The notes below the pieces were generated by a model. That model saw only the letters and a program-made list of their open reading frames with translations. It ran no database searches and was not told the origin of the DNA. Of a stretch of 64,000 nucleotides of DNA, positions 9,569 through 16,221 are shown piece after piece (the stretch's first letter is position 1; the number at the start of each line of letters is the position of its first letter). The DNA lies in the NCBI RefSeq assembly GCF_000348725.1, contig NC_020813.1, positions 930,001-994,000 on the forward strand, in the 5' to 3' direction. The translations under genes and the position numbers were made by a program. Source of the DNA: Pseudobdellovibrio exovorus JSS (GTDB lineage: Bacteria; Bdellovibrionota; Bdellovibrionia; Bdellovibrionales; Bdellovibrionaceae).

Positions 9569-11065
9569 ATGAAAATAGCTACAGTGTTAAAACCATATTT
9601 TCAAATTGAAATAGGAAAAAACGAAAAATCTCAAGGCATAGTCTATGTTTTAGGTGGCAAATCTAAAGAGAAAGTTCAGACAGCTTATAAAAAAATTGTA
9701 GAAGCTGACGCGCTAACTGAGCAAAAAAACTTACTTCTTAAGAGCGAAAAGAAAGTTCAATACTTCCAAGGTAAAACGTCACATATCTGGATTGTGCAAT
9801 TACCTACAGCCGAAGTTAGTGCCTCTGAATCTACTTATACTTATGTACGTGATCAATTAGGCTCTTTGGTTTCGCAATTTAAAACGTATCAACTAGATTC
9901 GATCTCTTTAATTTTGGAACACGTAGATGTTCAAGCTGCGCGTGCAGGTGTTATCGGATTGGAACTCGCAGCCTACAATTTCTTGCAATGCTATAAAGGT
10001 ACAGATGCTAAGTTTCCCCGTGTGACATTACAGGTAGCGGGCAGTGCAGACAAAAAAATCAATCGTCAGTTTTTAAAGGACGCTCAGGATGAGGCCTTAG
10101 CCGTACAGTGGGCTCGTCATTTGGTGAATCTGCCACCGAATGTGGTCAACCCTGAAAGTGTAGAGCAGTTTGTAAAAAGTGTATTTGGTAAATCTGCCGG
10201 AGTTAAATTAGAGGTATGGGATCATAAAAAACTAAAAGCTGAAGGCATGGGTCTACACTTAGCTGTCGGTATGGGATCAGATACTCCTCCGCGCATGATT
10301 CGCATTTGCTATCGCCCTAAGACAAAGAGTTCTAAAAAACCAATTGCCTTCGTTGGTAAAGGCATCACTTTTGATACAGGTGGATTAGATATTAAACCTT
10401 CATCGGCTATGCGCTTGATGAAAAAAGATATGGGTGGATCAGCAGCAGTTTTAGGGCTGGCGTATTGGGTGATTAACTCTGGATACAAACGTGCCTGTGA
10501 TTTCTATCTGGCTTTAGCGGAAAACAGTGTGGATGCAAAGGCGATGCGACCGGGTGATATCTACAAATCACGTGCGGGCCATCTTGTTGAAATTGACAAT
10601 ACAGATGCAGAAGGCCGATTGGTGCTAGCCGATGTAATGGATGTGGCGGCAACTCAGAAAGGGAAAGATGCTCCTGAGTTTTTGATTGATGTGGCCACAC
10701 TGACTGGTGCGATTAAAGTGGCATTAGGAACAGATATCGCAGGACTATTCAGTAATGATGATCAACTCGCGCAGGAGCTTCAGTCTGCGGGGCAAGCTGC
10801 CGGAGACTATAGCTGGAGAATGCCATTGCATCAAAAATACTTTACGTCATTATCATCTTCATTTGCTGACTTTAGAAACTCTGCGGATGGCTTTGGTGGC
10901 GCGATTACAGCGGCCTTATTTTTAGAAAAATACAGTGGTGGAGTGAAGTGGGCCCATCTCGATGTGTACAGTTGGAATGACAGACCCAATGGAGCTCTTA
11001 CAACAGTGGGTGGAAGTGGTCAGCCTGTTCAAGCTCTGATTGAATGGTTAAAACAGAAGGTTTAA
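9569..11065 (+). CDS. pepA: Leucyl aminopeptidase (M17, PepA-like)
   Basis: A 498-residue cytosolic two-metal aminopeptidase, normally a hexamer that releases N-terminal amino acids. The catalytic C-domain shows the metal/Lys motif GKGITFDTGGLDIKPS, MKKDMGGSAAVLGL, and the family signature NTDAEGRLVLADVMD. The N-terminal macro-like domain is divergent. The start is ATG at 9569 because it follows AGGAG by seven bases; the longer open frame from 9470 has no SD and overlaps the divergent nuclease gene. The 3' end sits inside a 13-bp palindrome shared with the convergent neighbour. It is one of three peptidases in the first 26 kb, with pepN and pcp. Confidence 0.9.
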   Translation: MKIATVLKPYFQIEIGKNEKSQGIVYVLGGKSKEKVQTAYKKIVEADALTEQKNLLLKSEKKVQYFQGKTSHIWIVQLPTAEVSASESTYTYVRDQLGSLVSQFKTYQLDSISLILEHVDVQAARAGVIGLELAAYNFLQCYKGTDAKFPRVTLQVAGSADKKINRQFLKDAQDEALAVQWARHLVNLPPNVVNPESVEQFVKSVFGKSAGVKLEVWDHKKLKAEGMGLHLAVGMGSDTPPRMIRICYRPKTKSSKKPIAFVGKGITFDTGGLDIKPSSAMRLMKKDMGGSAAVLGLAYWVINSGYKRACDFYLALAENSVDAKAMRPGDIYKSRAGHLVEIDNTDAEGRLVLADVMDVAATQKGKDAPEFLIDVATLTGAIKVALGTDIAGLFSNDDQLAQELQSAGQAAGDYSWRMPLHQKYFTSLSSSFADFRNSADGFGGAITAALFLEKYSGGVKWAHLDVYSWNDRPNGALTTVGGSGQPVQALIEWLKQKV

Positions 11066-11079
11066 AAAACCTTCTGTTT
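11051..11079. terminator. Bidirectional hairpin spanning the stops of two convergent genes
   Basis: The perfect inverted repeat AAACAGAAGGTTT (11051-11063) / AAACCTTCTGTTT (11067-11079) has a three-base AAA spacer. T-rich sequence follows in both directions, which is the form of a bidirectional intrinsic terminator. It lies entirely within the coding ends of pepA and the convergent gene at 11062-12456, so both stop codons are inside the stem-loop. Confidence 0.75.
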
Positions 11080-12456
11080 TTCTAAAAATTTGTGAAGTTT
11101 ATCAGGGACAAGTTTTTTCCAAAACTTGTCTTTCTTTTTTAAAAGTTTCAAGACATCGTCAGAGTGAATAAACTCGGTCAGTTCATCACAACCCGCAATA
11201 TCTTGAATCATATTATTTTCGATAAAGTGTCTGTAGATGTTTTTGACTTCTGGTTTTGGGAAGAAACTTTTACTCAGCAGGCAAATTTCTGCCGTCTTGT
11301 GCGGATAAATGTAAAGGCGTGAAAATCTACCTAAAAGTTTAGACATTCCCTCTAAAAGTCCACCATTCAAATCAAAGTAAAAACTCTCATCGAAAAGTTT
11401 TTCAAGATGAGTTGCCCCAATAACAATAGCTAACGGGGATTTTGTTGAAAGACGAATATATTCTTTAAGCTGATAAAAAAGAGTAAAGCGAGTCACTAAT
11501 ACAGGAACTTTTAATTCGTTGATCATCTTGACGCGCGAATATGCTTGCTCTGTATTCAGATGAGTTTTCTTAATACGATTATCAATAGTGAATTCAAAAA
11601 CTCCTAGAACATCGTTAGCTTTAAGTGAGAACTCTTTTTTGAAATGAGAAAGTCCCTTTTCAAAGATATCAAGGTGAGTGTTCGTCACAGGATGAAAGAA
11701 GCCACGCTGAATCAGTAAAGACTTATTCCAAAAGAAATCCGCTTGGTTTTGGACTTGCCCATTTTGGTCGACAAAGCAGGCTTCACTATAGCCCTGCTCA
11801 ACTAACATAAGATTAAATTTAATCTCATCAAATTTTGAAAACTCTGAGCCAGAAAAGTAAATCACATCTACCGATAAGGACTCTGATTTTATTTGATCGA
11901 AAAGGCCAGATAAGAACTCCTGTGGATCTTTTCTGCGGTAGAAACAAGAGTGGATCAGATTAACTCCTAGCTTACTAAGAGTCTCTTGTTGTTGTAGGCG
12001 ATACTTATCCAGCATGCGCACGTGTAACATAACTTGTTGAGCTTCTGAGTTAGGAGAGTGCTGAAACTTTAGACCTAACCAACCATGGCAGGATCTTTTA
12101 TCACCCTCTGAAGAGGTGGCGACAGTATCTGCAAAGCTGAAAAAACAGGTGTTTTTATGACGGGTAGGTCCAAGGCGTTCGATCAACTTGCTGTATTCAC
12201 GATCCAACATTTTTTCAAGACGTGACTTACAGACATAACGGCCTGACTTTTCTTTGCCATAGATAATATCACTGTAGGTCATATCATAGGCCGAGATAGT
12301 TAAAGCTATCGTCTGAGACGCCTTACCAGCTTGAAAAAAGTGACGAGCGACTTCTTGACCAGCTCCGATTTCGGCAAAGCTGCCATAAAAAAGAGGGTCA
12401 AGATTAACATCAAGGGCTTTTTCTAAAATAGTTTTAGATCTTCTTTGTTCTGACAT
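11062..12456 (-). CDS. Conserved protein of unknown function
   Basis: This 464-residue protein opens with DVNLDPLFYGSFAEIGAGQE, then ISAYDMTYSDIIYG and FFSFADTVAT, and later SHGWLGLKFQ-like and MLDKYRLQQQETL stretches. I recognise this as a widespread soluble family that databases name inconsistently. There is no signal peptide, membrane helix or TonB box, so 'receptor'-type names would be misleading. The conserved Gly/Ala-rich start and SYD/SFAD motifs suggest an enzyme, but no catalytic motif is assignable. It starts one base after the stop of the DUF502 gene, so the two are probably cotranscribed. The C-terminus overlaps pepA by four bases. Confidence 0.7.
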   Translation of the reverse strand: MSEQRRSKTILEKALDVNLDPLFYGSFAEIGAGQEVARHFFQAGKASQTIALTISAYDMTYSDIIYGKEKSGRYVCKSRLEKMLDREYSKLIERLGPTRHKNTCFFSFADTVATSSEGDKRSCHGWLGLKFQHSPNSEAQQVMLHVRMLDKYRLQQQETLSKLGVNLIHSCFYRRKDPQEFLSGLFDQIKSESLSVDVIYFSGSEFSKFDEIKFNLMLVEQGYSEACFVDQNGQVQNQADFFWNKSLLIQRGFFHPVTNTHLDIFEKGLSHFKKEFSLKANDVLGVFEFTIDNRIKKTHLNTEQAYSRVKMINELKVPVLVTRFTLFYQLKEYIRLSTKSPLAIVIGATHLEKLFDESFYFDLNGGLLEGMSKLLGRFSRLYIYPHKTAEICLLSKSFFPKPEVKNIYRHFIENNMIQDIAGCDELTEFIHSDDVLKLLKKKDKFWKKLVPDKLHKFLEKQKVF

Positions 12457-14275: not shown

Positions 14276-14373
14276 TGTCCAAAATATTTTCAAAATTAGC
14301 CAAATTCCGCCCTATTTTGAGAGAAATTAGGACTCTAGTTTAGTTGTCTAGTCCAGTCCCCGATAATGGAGAC

Positions 14374-16221
14374 ATGTGGAAATTAAACTTAAGCCTAGTC
14401 GTGGGTCTCTCATTGTCTGTTGTCGTACCGAGTGCATTAGCACAGGTCAGCGCACCACAAACAGTGACTGGCGAATATATCGTTAAATTCAAACAGCAGT
14501 CCTCTGTGAGCAGCGCGGGATTAAGTAAGATGGCCGGAACCTTCGGCGCATCTGTATCTGTAAAGAATGTCTTTGCGGCGTCTCGTATGATGCATTTAAA
14601 GGTGAATAGCGAAGTGGCTCGCGATGCACTTTATGCTAACCCTGATGTTGAGTTTATTGAGCCTAACTATATATTAAGTGTGAATCCTGTTGATGTGAGC
14701 CCATTAGGGTCTGCTCCGCAGGCTTCTGATAGTTATGGTCAGTCACGTGCTAATGTGCAAGTTCGTGATTCGTGGAATATCCAAAAGCCTTATGACAGTG
14801 GTAACAAAGTCGTTGTTGCGGTTATTGATACGGGTTTAGATCGCGGACATCTTTTATTTAAAGATTCAGGTTCTATCTGGGAAAATGAAAAGGAAAAGAA
14901 TGGCCTTGCAGGTGTGGATGATGATGGAAACGGCTACGTAGATGATATTAATGGTTGGAACTATGTAGGGAGCACTGGAAACGTACACGACGATAATAAC
15001 CACGGAACACATGTGGCGGGTATCGTTTTAGGTGTGGGCCAAGACGTTATGGCGTACCCTGTGCGTGAATCAAAGGTAAAAATCTTACCTCTAAAGTTTT
15101 TAGATTCTAAAGGCGCTGGTTCAACAGCCAATGCAGTCAGCGCGATTTATTATGCTGTCGCTCAAGGAGCTAAGGTCATCAACAACTCTTGGGGTGGACC
15201 TTCTTATTCACAATCTCTACATGAAGCTTATGCTTATGCTTACAATAATGGTGTTGTGATTGTTTCAGCTGCGGGGAACTCGAATACAAATAATGATTCG
15301 ACTCCGATGTATCCGGCAAATATTAATTCTCCGAATAATATCAGTGTCGCTTCAACGACAGATTCAGACTATAAATCATCATTCTCGAACTATGGAGTGG
15401 GCAGTGTGCATGTAGCAGCTCCGGGCTCTTCAATTTTGAGCTCTGTTCCTGGTAGTGGATGTTTTGCTCCAGGTTGTTATCAGATGATGTCGGGGACTTC
15501 AATGGCGGCTCCATTTGTAGCAGGTCTTGCCGCTTTGATCCTGCGTGAAGCTCCACAGTTATCTTCGTACCAAGTTAAAAGTATTATCGAAGGGTCTTTG
15601 GACCGCGTTAGTGGTTTATCGACTGTAGTGTCGACATCTGGTCGCGTGAATGCTTATAAAGCGATTATCAATGCTAAAGCCAATGTAGAGACACCTCCGT
15701 GGTCGCCGGCTTATGCTCCAGATTATAAAACAAGTCGTAGCACGGCCTCAGCTATGGAAGCTCTTCCAGGCGCAGGTTGTGGTTTAGTGAAAGCGTTAGT
15801 GGATAAAGGTGGTACTGGTGGTGGTTCTGGAGCATGGACTCTGGTCGCTATCTTAATGTTGCCATTCGCTGTCGCAGTAGCTTTAAGAAATAGAAAAGAA
15901 GCACAAACTCCAGCGACTGCAAACAGACGTGTTCACGATCGTTTCTCGGTAGCTAAAAAAGCAGTTCTGAAAGCAAACGATCAATTAATTGATATCACAA
16001 CGGCGGATATGTCGGTGGGTGGTATCTCGTTCAAATCGGATGCTGGTTTAAATAAAGGTCAGATCATCGAATTACAATTCAGCGAAAAGTCCGATGAAAA
16101 ATTAGAAGCCGAAGTTGTATGGTGTTCAACTAAACAAGAGTATGGATTAAGGTTCTTGAATGTATCGGAAAGCATTAAGTTCCAGATCCAATCTTGGACT
16201 CAAGGTTTAGTGCCGACATAA
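14374..16221 (+). CDS. Secreted subtilisin-like protease with C-terminal membrane helix and PilZ domain
   Basis: A 615-residue protein. A signal peptide (MWKLNLS to SALA, about 1-22) precedes an I9-type propeptide (TGEYIVKFK to VEFIEPNY, about 27-105). The S8 catalytic domain has Asp152 (VIDTGLD), His210 (NHGTHVAGI) and Ser376 (SGTSMAAPF). A Cys- and Gly-rich linker (GAGCGLV, GGTGGGSGA) and one helix (about 488-506) ending in RNRK resemble a CTERM sorting tail. A complete PilZ domain follows, with RVHDR at 519-523 (RxxxR) and DMSVGG at 545-550 (DxSxxG), both c-di-GMP contacts. Positive-inside topology puts the protease outside and PilZ in the cytoplasm. ATG at 14374 is preferred over TTG at 14344 because it begins the signal peptide. 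Confidence 0.88.
   Translation: MWKLNLSLVVGLSLSVVVPSALAQVSAPQTVTGEYIVKFKQQSSVSSAGLSKMAGTFGASVSVKNVFAASRMMHLKVNSEVARDALYANPDVEFIEPNYILSVNPVDVSPLGSAPQASDSYGQSRANVQVRDSWNIQKPYDSGNKVVVAVIDTGLDRGHLLFKDSGSIWENEKEKNGLAGVDDDGNGYVDDINGWNYVGSTGNVHDDNNHGTHVAGIVLGVGQDVMAYPVRESKVKILPLKFLDSKGAGSTANAVSAIYYAVAQGAKVINNSWGGPSYSQSLHEAYAYAYNNGVVIVSAAGNSNTNNDSTPMYPANINSPNNISVASTTDSDYKSSFSNYGVGSVHVAAPGSSILSSVPGSGCFAPGCYQMMSGTSMAAPFVAGLAALILREAPQLSSYQVKSIIEGSLDRVSGLSTVVSTSGRVNAYKAIINAKANVETPPWSPAYAPDYKTSRSTASAMEALPGAGCGLVKALVDKGGTGGGSGAWTLVAILMLPFAVAVALRNRKEAQTPATANRRVHDRFSVAKKAVLKANDQLIDITTADMSVGGISFKSDAGLNKGQIIELQFSEKSDEKLEAEVVWCSTKQEYGLRFLNVSESIKFQIQSWTQGLVPT

Follow-up and report, generated by a model that had tools for sequence, protein, structure and literature searches.

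Introduction

Exported proteins can carry a C-terminal helix that serves as a tag for processing. In Vibrio cholerae, cleavage of the serine protease VesB by RssP requires a proline in the helix of its tag, and the plain rhomboid GlpG cleaves VesB too (PMC11389362). In Myxococcus xanthus, cleavage of MYXO-CTERM by MrtX requires the conserved cysteine of the tag (PMC11980579). Among PilZ proteins, M. xanthus PixB still binds c-di-GMP although its second ligand motif is substituted (PMC8316039), and an enzyme of Bdellovibrio bacteriovorus is reported to make 3',3'-cGAMP (PMC9140294). The combination of a subtilisin domain followed by a PilZ domain was listed once, in 2008, for B. bacteriovorus NP_969350.1 with the predicted role 'Signalling' (PMC2605481); the listing itself says nothing of a membrane helix or a tag, nor of conservation, family or mechanism. 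NP_969350.1 is likely the orthologue of the Pseudobdellovibrio exovorus protein studied here. The open-access papers found contain no description of the tag reported below or of its distribution, no experiment on the S8-PilZ protein, and no case of one protein through which an intracellular second messenger decides what becomes of an exported protease; outside that literature, a paper from 2016 on the c-di-GMP network of B. bacteriovorus may discuss the protein.

Results

Domain architecture and predicted topology

The S8-PilZ gene lies in a window of 64,000 nucleotides from P. exovorus JSS. An ORF check found one uninterrupted reading frame across 14374-16221 (Table 1); an alternative in-frame TTG at 14344, which would add 10 residues, is a candidate start. 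Profile match and D/H/S triad identify the product as a Peptidase S8 (subtilase) of predicted proteolytic activity, and the solved structure closest to its catalytic domain is deseasin MCP-01. The preliminary description of the locus had proposed this triad, which is indeed complete and invariant in 85/85 orthologues, and an I9 propeptide, which has to be corrected: the Pfam match is to Fervidolysin_NPro-like (PF22148, residues 20-98) instead of Inhibitor_I9.

Table 1. Features of the S8-PilZ gene and its product (window coordinates)
Feature	Position	Strand	Evidence
CDS, 615 aa: signal peptide, propeptide, S8, Cys tag with membrane helix, PilZ	14374..16221	+	ORF, Pfam, full-length homologues
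Signal peptide, residues 1-23 (ALA|QV)	14374..14442	+	second most hydrophobic stretch; cleavage position by inspection
Propeptide, about residues 26-98, Fervidolysin_NPro-like	14449..14667	+	Pfam 20-98; folded in model
Peptidase_S8 catalytic domain, residues 143-409	14800..15600	+	Pfam E=3e-54
Catalytic Asp152	14827..14829	+	85/85 orthologues
Catalytic His210	15001..15003	+	85/85 orthologues
Catalytic Ser376	15499..15501	+	85/85 orthologues
Gly468-Cys469-Gly470, tag signature	15775..15783	+	Cys469: 85/85 orthologues, 5/5 relatives without PilZ; unrelated proteins with the tag also invariant here
Gly-rich low-confidence linker, residues 471-485	15784..15828	+	alignment, structure model
Membrane helix, residues 486-505, with Pro497	15829..15888	+	hydropathy; model helix 486-511; Pro497 84/84 aligned
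Basic stop RNRK, residues 505-508	15886..15897	+	sequence, hydropathy/charge analysis
PilZ domain, residues 517-608	15922..16197	+	Pfam E=2e-13, fold match
R519xxxR523, first c-di-GMP motif	15928..15942	+	84/85 orthologues
D545-M-S547-V-G-G550, second ligand motif	16006..16023	+	S547 80/85, G550 83/85, D545 3/85

The single helix and its basic stop were also described correctly: residues 486-505 are the most hydrophobic stretch of the whole protein, ahead of the signal peptide, and RNRK is present. In an AlphaFold2 model (mean pLDDT 86) the protease and PilZ domains are well folded, residues 486-511 form a helix, and linkers 106-117, 455-470 and 511-517 are of low confidence. The homologues carry the same topological signs, with a hydrophobic helix in 87/89 and a more positive net charge on its C-terminal side in 82/90. 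The best reading of these signs is a predicted topology with the protease outside, the helix across the inner membrane and PilZ in the cytoplasm. The outside-inside protein originally proposed, with S8, membrane helix and PilZ in one chain, agrees with these signs, and the conservation and selection described below mark the architecture as real, ancient and selected.

The fusion is conserved across most of the class

With the full protein as query, 109 of the order's 141 genomes gave matches extending through PilZ, as did 3 class members from beyond the order; several of the order genomes lacking such a match are contig-truncated, incomplete or small. Beyond the class, genomes of the phylum showed no fusion, their matches covering the protease part only, and a search of genome contigs for related loci returned one distant S8 match and nothing else. 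The preliminary description had warned of a sequencing frameshift or fusion error, with homologues all lacking PilZ; instead, a Pfam match to PilZ was found in 51/51 orthologues tested. Between close pairs, dN in the PilZ part is far below dS (0-0.01 vs 0.35-0.58 in four pairs), and the PilZ domain is under strong purifying selection. The tree of the protease region groups by taxonomic family, as expected of vertical inheritance. A gene-fusion or frameshift artefact, or chance, is ruled out by the nearly class-wide fusion together with the low dN of PilZ. More broadly, it is very improbable that annotation or assembly created the architecture or that PilZ is itself exported: nothing other than rarity speaks for either idea, the single frame and class-wide fusion contradict the first, and the hydrophobic helix with its basic inner flank argues against the second.

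PilZ is also lost at times. Five PilZ-less S8 sequences occupy separate positions in the protease tree and each keeps the tag, which shows that PilZ was lost repeatedly while protease and tag stayed; about five losses is our best estimate, as a quick tree-building method was used and long branches lead to some of the sequences. A sister of one of them (L098, genome G122) retains the protease and tag, followed by a PilZ remnant that Pfam does not recognise. Outside the class, S8 proteins that end in the tag and lack PilZ were found in two genomes (two proteins in G288, one in G301), while the S8 relatives of family f12 stop directly behind their catalytic domain. Most simply, S8 would have gained the tag first, and PilZ would then have been appended behind it in an ancestor of the class. 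The P. exovorus genome (a single 2.66 Mb contig) encodes 13 PilZ domains and about 13-14 S8 genes; at C1:1976269-1977531 (L011, L001) a tagless S8 gene ends near a convergent PilZ-domain gene, possibly by coincidence.

A possibly modified ligand site in the PilZ domain

The domain matches PF07238 and has the PilZ fold. The nearest solved folds to its model are the PilZ domains of Alg44, YcgR and MotI, many of them c-di-GMP complexes, the closest being Alg44-c-di-GMP. The claim that both ligand motifs are intact holds for the first, as RxxxR is found in 84/85 orthologues and the sole exception is contig-truncated. It holds in part for the second: [D/N]xSxxG is present in the P. exovorus protein (D545xSxGG), but position 545 is Thr, Ser or Cys in 78/85 orthologues (Thr 45, Ser 28, Cys 5, Asp 3, Asn 1), D or N occurs there in 4/85, and Asp545 is confined to P. 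exovorus and two near relatives (L025-L027). In the S8-PilZ family the second motif is mostly T/SxSxGG, with S547 and GG nearly invariant. The small hydroxyl residue usual at position 545 points to modification of the site more than to decay, and as T/SxSxGG is unusual, another dinucleotide such as cGAMP has to be considered as ligand. In another PilZ protein of the same genome (L003, C1:1351833-1352123), Thr likewise replaces the Asp of the second motif.

The repeated losses, the degenerate PilZ of L098 and the replacement of Asp545 in most orthologues would fit a passenger domain that binds little or no ligand. We consider this improbable given the invariant RxxxR, the Pfam matches in every orthologue tested and the excess of dS over dN.

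The membrane helix belongs to a portable cysteine tag

Of all its cysteines, Cys469 alone is shared by the full set of 90 homologues (85 orthologues and 5 PilZ-less relatives); as no partner cysteine is conserved, a disulphide within the protease was rejected. It lies in a tag of the form GC[G/A], linker, and helix with a proline and a basic end. In the alignment the linker is Gly/Pro-rich and variable in length, Pro497 is present in 84/84 aligned sequences, and basic residues follow the helix. The spacing from the helix proline to RxxxR is short (mode 16, about 16-20 residues).

A tail profile built from S8 sequences only (A2) showed that unrelated exported proteins also end in this tail: matrixin-like metalloproteases (L150, L154, L156, L157), a C25 gingipain-like protein of 3539 aa (L153), a protein weakly like polysaccharide monooxygenases (L159), and proteins of some 530 aa that match no Pfam domain (L151, L152, L155). 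A second profile (A3), built from the A2 tails and unrelated tagged proteins, has matches in 108/130 genomes of the class, at 1-4 per genome, including tagged proteins outside its building set. Twenty further regions fetched after this search contained at least thirteen proteins tagged at the extreme C-terminus, 4-14 residues past the helix; L162-L165 were assigned as gingipain-like and L166-L169 and L179 as matrixin-like by shared motifs, without a profile. The S8-PilZ protein is a near-constant bearer of the tag and the only type seen with a domain behind it; in P. exovorus and most of genus g4 it is the only tagged protein that A3 finds. In a rule-based scan of 0.92 Mb of DNA for GC-helix tails the convincing cases were S8 paralogues only, the profile search being far more sensitive. 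NCBIfam CTERM models gave no convincing match to the tag, and the MYXO-CTERM profile matched neither the tails at E<=10 nor the tagged proteins at E<=1. These data demonstrate that the membrane helix belongs to a portable, previously unnamed, Cys-containing C-terminal tag; its initial likening to a CTERM tail was right, and understated.

Two groups of tagged proteins deserve mention of their own. Very large C25 gingipain-like proteins of about 1500-3500 aa (L153, L162-L165) end in the same Cys tag in several Bdellovibrionales. The tagged exported family without Pfam domains (L151, L152, L155, L171, L172) comprises proteins of 525-569 aa, one of which weakly resembles the N-terminal region of AgmC (gliding motility).

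Candidate processing enzymes

Families of known tag-processing enzymes were compared with the distribution of the tag. CPBP proteases occur in 15 of the 53 well-sequenced genomes of the family and are missing in the other 38; the CPBP protein of P. exovorus has no myxosortase match and is present in 2/141 genomes of the order. This distribution rules out a CPBP myxosortase as the general route. The PEP-CTERM/exosortase system and the GlyGly-CTERM/rhombosortase enzyme are ruled out by absence: neither an exosortase nor a rhombosortase above the curated cut-off was found in any of the 53 family genomes. No sortase gene is among the recurring neighbours of the S8-PilZ gene. Ordinary rhomboids occur in all 53 family genomes, a universality that alone proves nothing. 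Because VesB cleavage needs the helix proline and GlpG also cleaves VesB, a rhomboid may be taken as a reasonable candidate for cutting the tag, and as that only.

The failure to find a dedicated sorting enzyme would suit an uncleaved transmembrane receptor-enzyme permanently anchored by its helix, with Cys469 either carrying a lipid or joined by a disulphide to another molecule, and with PilZ, once it has bound ligand, shifting the oligomeric state and thereby protease activity. The retention of PilZ in most orthologues under purifying selection and the position of the sole invariant cysteine close to the membrane are consistent with it. However, the same tag ends unrelated enzymes that have no cytoplasmic domain, suggesting that the tag has a function of its own, and the long, variable, low-confidence linker between S8 and helix would be a poor rigid coupler. 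We regard a permanent anchor as unlikely.

Gene neighbourhood

Beside the protease gene, a PpiD-like gene (SurA-like and rotamase domains) recurs in 29/60 fetched loci, mostly directly upstream and on the same strand; mreC lies within 5 kb in 25/60 and PBP2 in 24. The sampled neighbours, RodA in L084 included, were confirmed by Pfam. The family of P. exovorus has lost this mre/PpiD setting and has a DUF502 gene and mgtE as neighbours instead. A 464-aa ORF at window positions 11062-12456 is conserved beside DUF502 in the loci of family f1 and has no Pfam match. The ancestral setting gives a hint of a role in envelope growth more than of one confined to predation. The tie to predation is weak, given that nearly the whole class has the gene and that it stands beside mre genes in many families.

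These neighbours raise the alternative that PilZ localises rather than gates, protein contacts tethering the precursor to the elongation machinery or a pole, with or without nucleotide. The proximity of PpiD/SurA-like, mreC, PBP2 and (in L084) RodA genes in many families and the poor conservation of Asp545 would agree with such a role, but the near-invariance of RxxxR, S547 and GG fits ligand binding and the family of P. exovorus lacks the neighbourhood. This alternative seems to us quite unlikely.

Discussion

The reading that we favour, at slightly less than an even chance, is a subtilase precursor that spans the membrane, has in its tag a site for processing or lipidation, and is influenced in retention, release or activity by the state of PilZ. 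The precursor of the secreted subtilase would span the inner membrane, with the protease outside and PilZ right behind the helix in the cytoplasm. Because it is the last element of the chain in related enzymes, the tag most probably serves as a signal for sorting or anchoring. We infer that Cys469 may be lipidated and that an intramembrane protease, perhaps of the rhomboid type, may cut the helix with its invariant proline, so that the enzyme would be placed on the cell surface or released. PilZ, appended behind the tag, would bind c-di-GMP or a relative at RxxxR, and the ligand-bound domain would change how accessible the tag is, or would keep the protein membrane-bound; the direction of control is likewise conjectural, and the ligand state would set where or when the protease acts.

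This precursor model is weakened by the enzyme survey, in which CPBP proteases are patchy and exosortases and rhombosortases absent from the family genomes, by the variability of residue 545 and the loss of PilZ without loss of the protease, and by the finding that no tagged protein other than S8-PilZ turned up in P. exovorus and most of g4. A bolder proposal, rather unlikely as a whole, is that Bdellovibrionia have a sorting system of their own, made of a Cys tag with invariant helix proline and a putative enzyme; the S8-PilZ protein would be its core substrate, with surface sorting gated directly by c-di-GMP or another dinucleotide such as cGAMP. The c-di-GMP switch of the preliminary description is possible; the portable Cys tag and the placement of PilZ behind it are the better-supported novelty. 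If the model were true, one protein would let an intracellular second messenger set the fate of an exported protease. The tag would then be a label of surface hydrolases in a lineage of predators, with its sorting enzyme becoming a findable target. Even if the idea of control fails, the tag and a nearly class-wide protease are new and testable parts of the Bdellovibrio envelope.

Compared with known systems, the Cys tag resembles MYXO-CTERM (PMC11980579) in its signature cysteine, helix, basic end and presence on exported hydrolases; the tagged metalloproteases weakly match the NCBIfam 'myxosortase-dependent metalloprotease', and one internal MYXO-CTERM case is known, MXAN_5598. In contrast to MYXO-CTERM, there is no model match here, CPBP proteases are missing from most family genomes, the tag has a few matches per genome and not dozens, and the helix proline is invariant. 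With the GlyGly-CTERM/RssP system (PMC11389362) the protein shares a serine protease bearing a C-terminal helix tag, the helix proline needed for VesB cleavage and a small or Gly-rich linker, whereas the invariant cysteine, the lack of a rhombosortase above cut-off and the PilZ domain behind the tag set it apart. Like Alg44, YcgR and BcsA, finally, which are membrane-linked or multidomain PilZ effectors of an envelope process, it has a matching PilZ fold; unlike all of them, it joins PilZ to an exported protease and belongs to a family with a mostly T/SxSxGG second motif.
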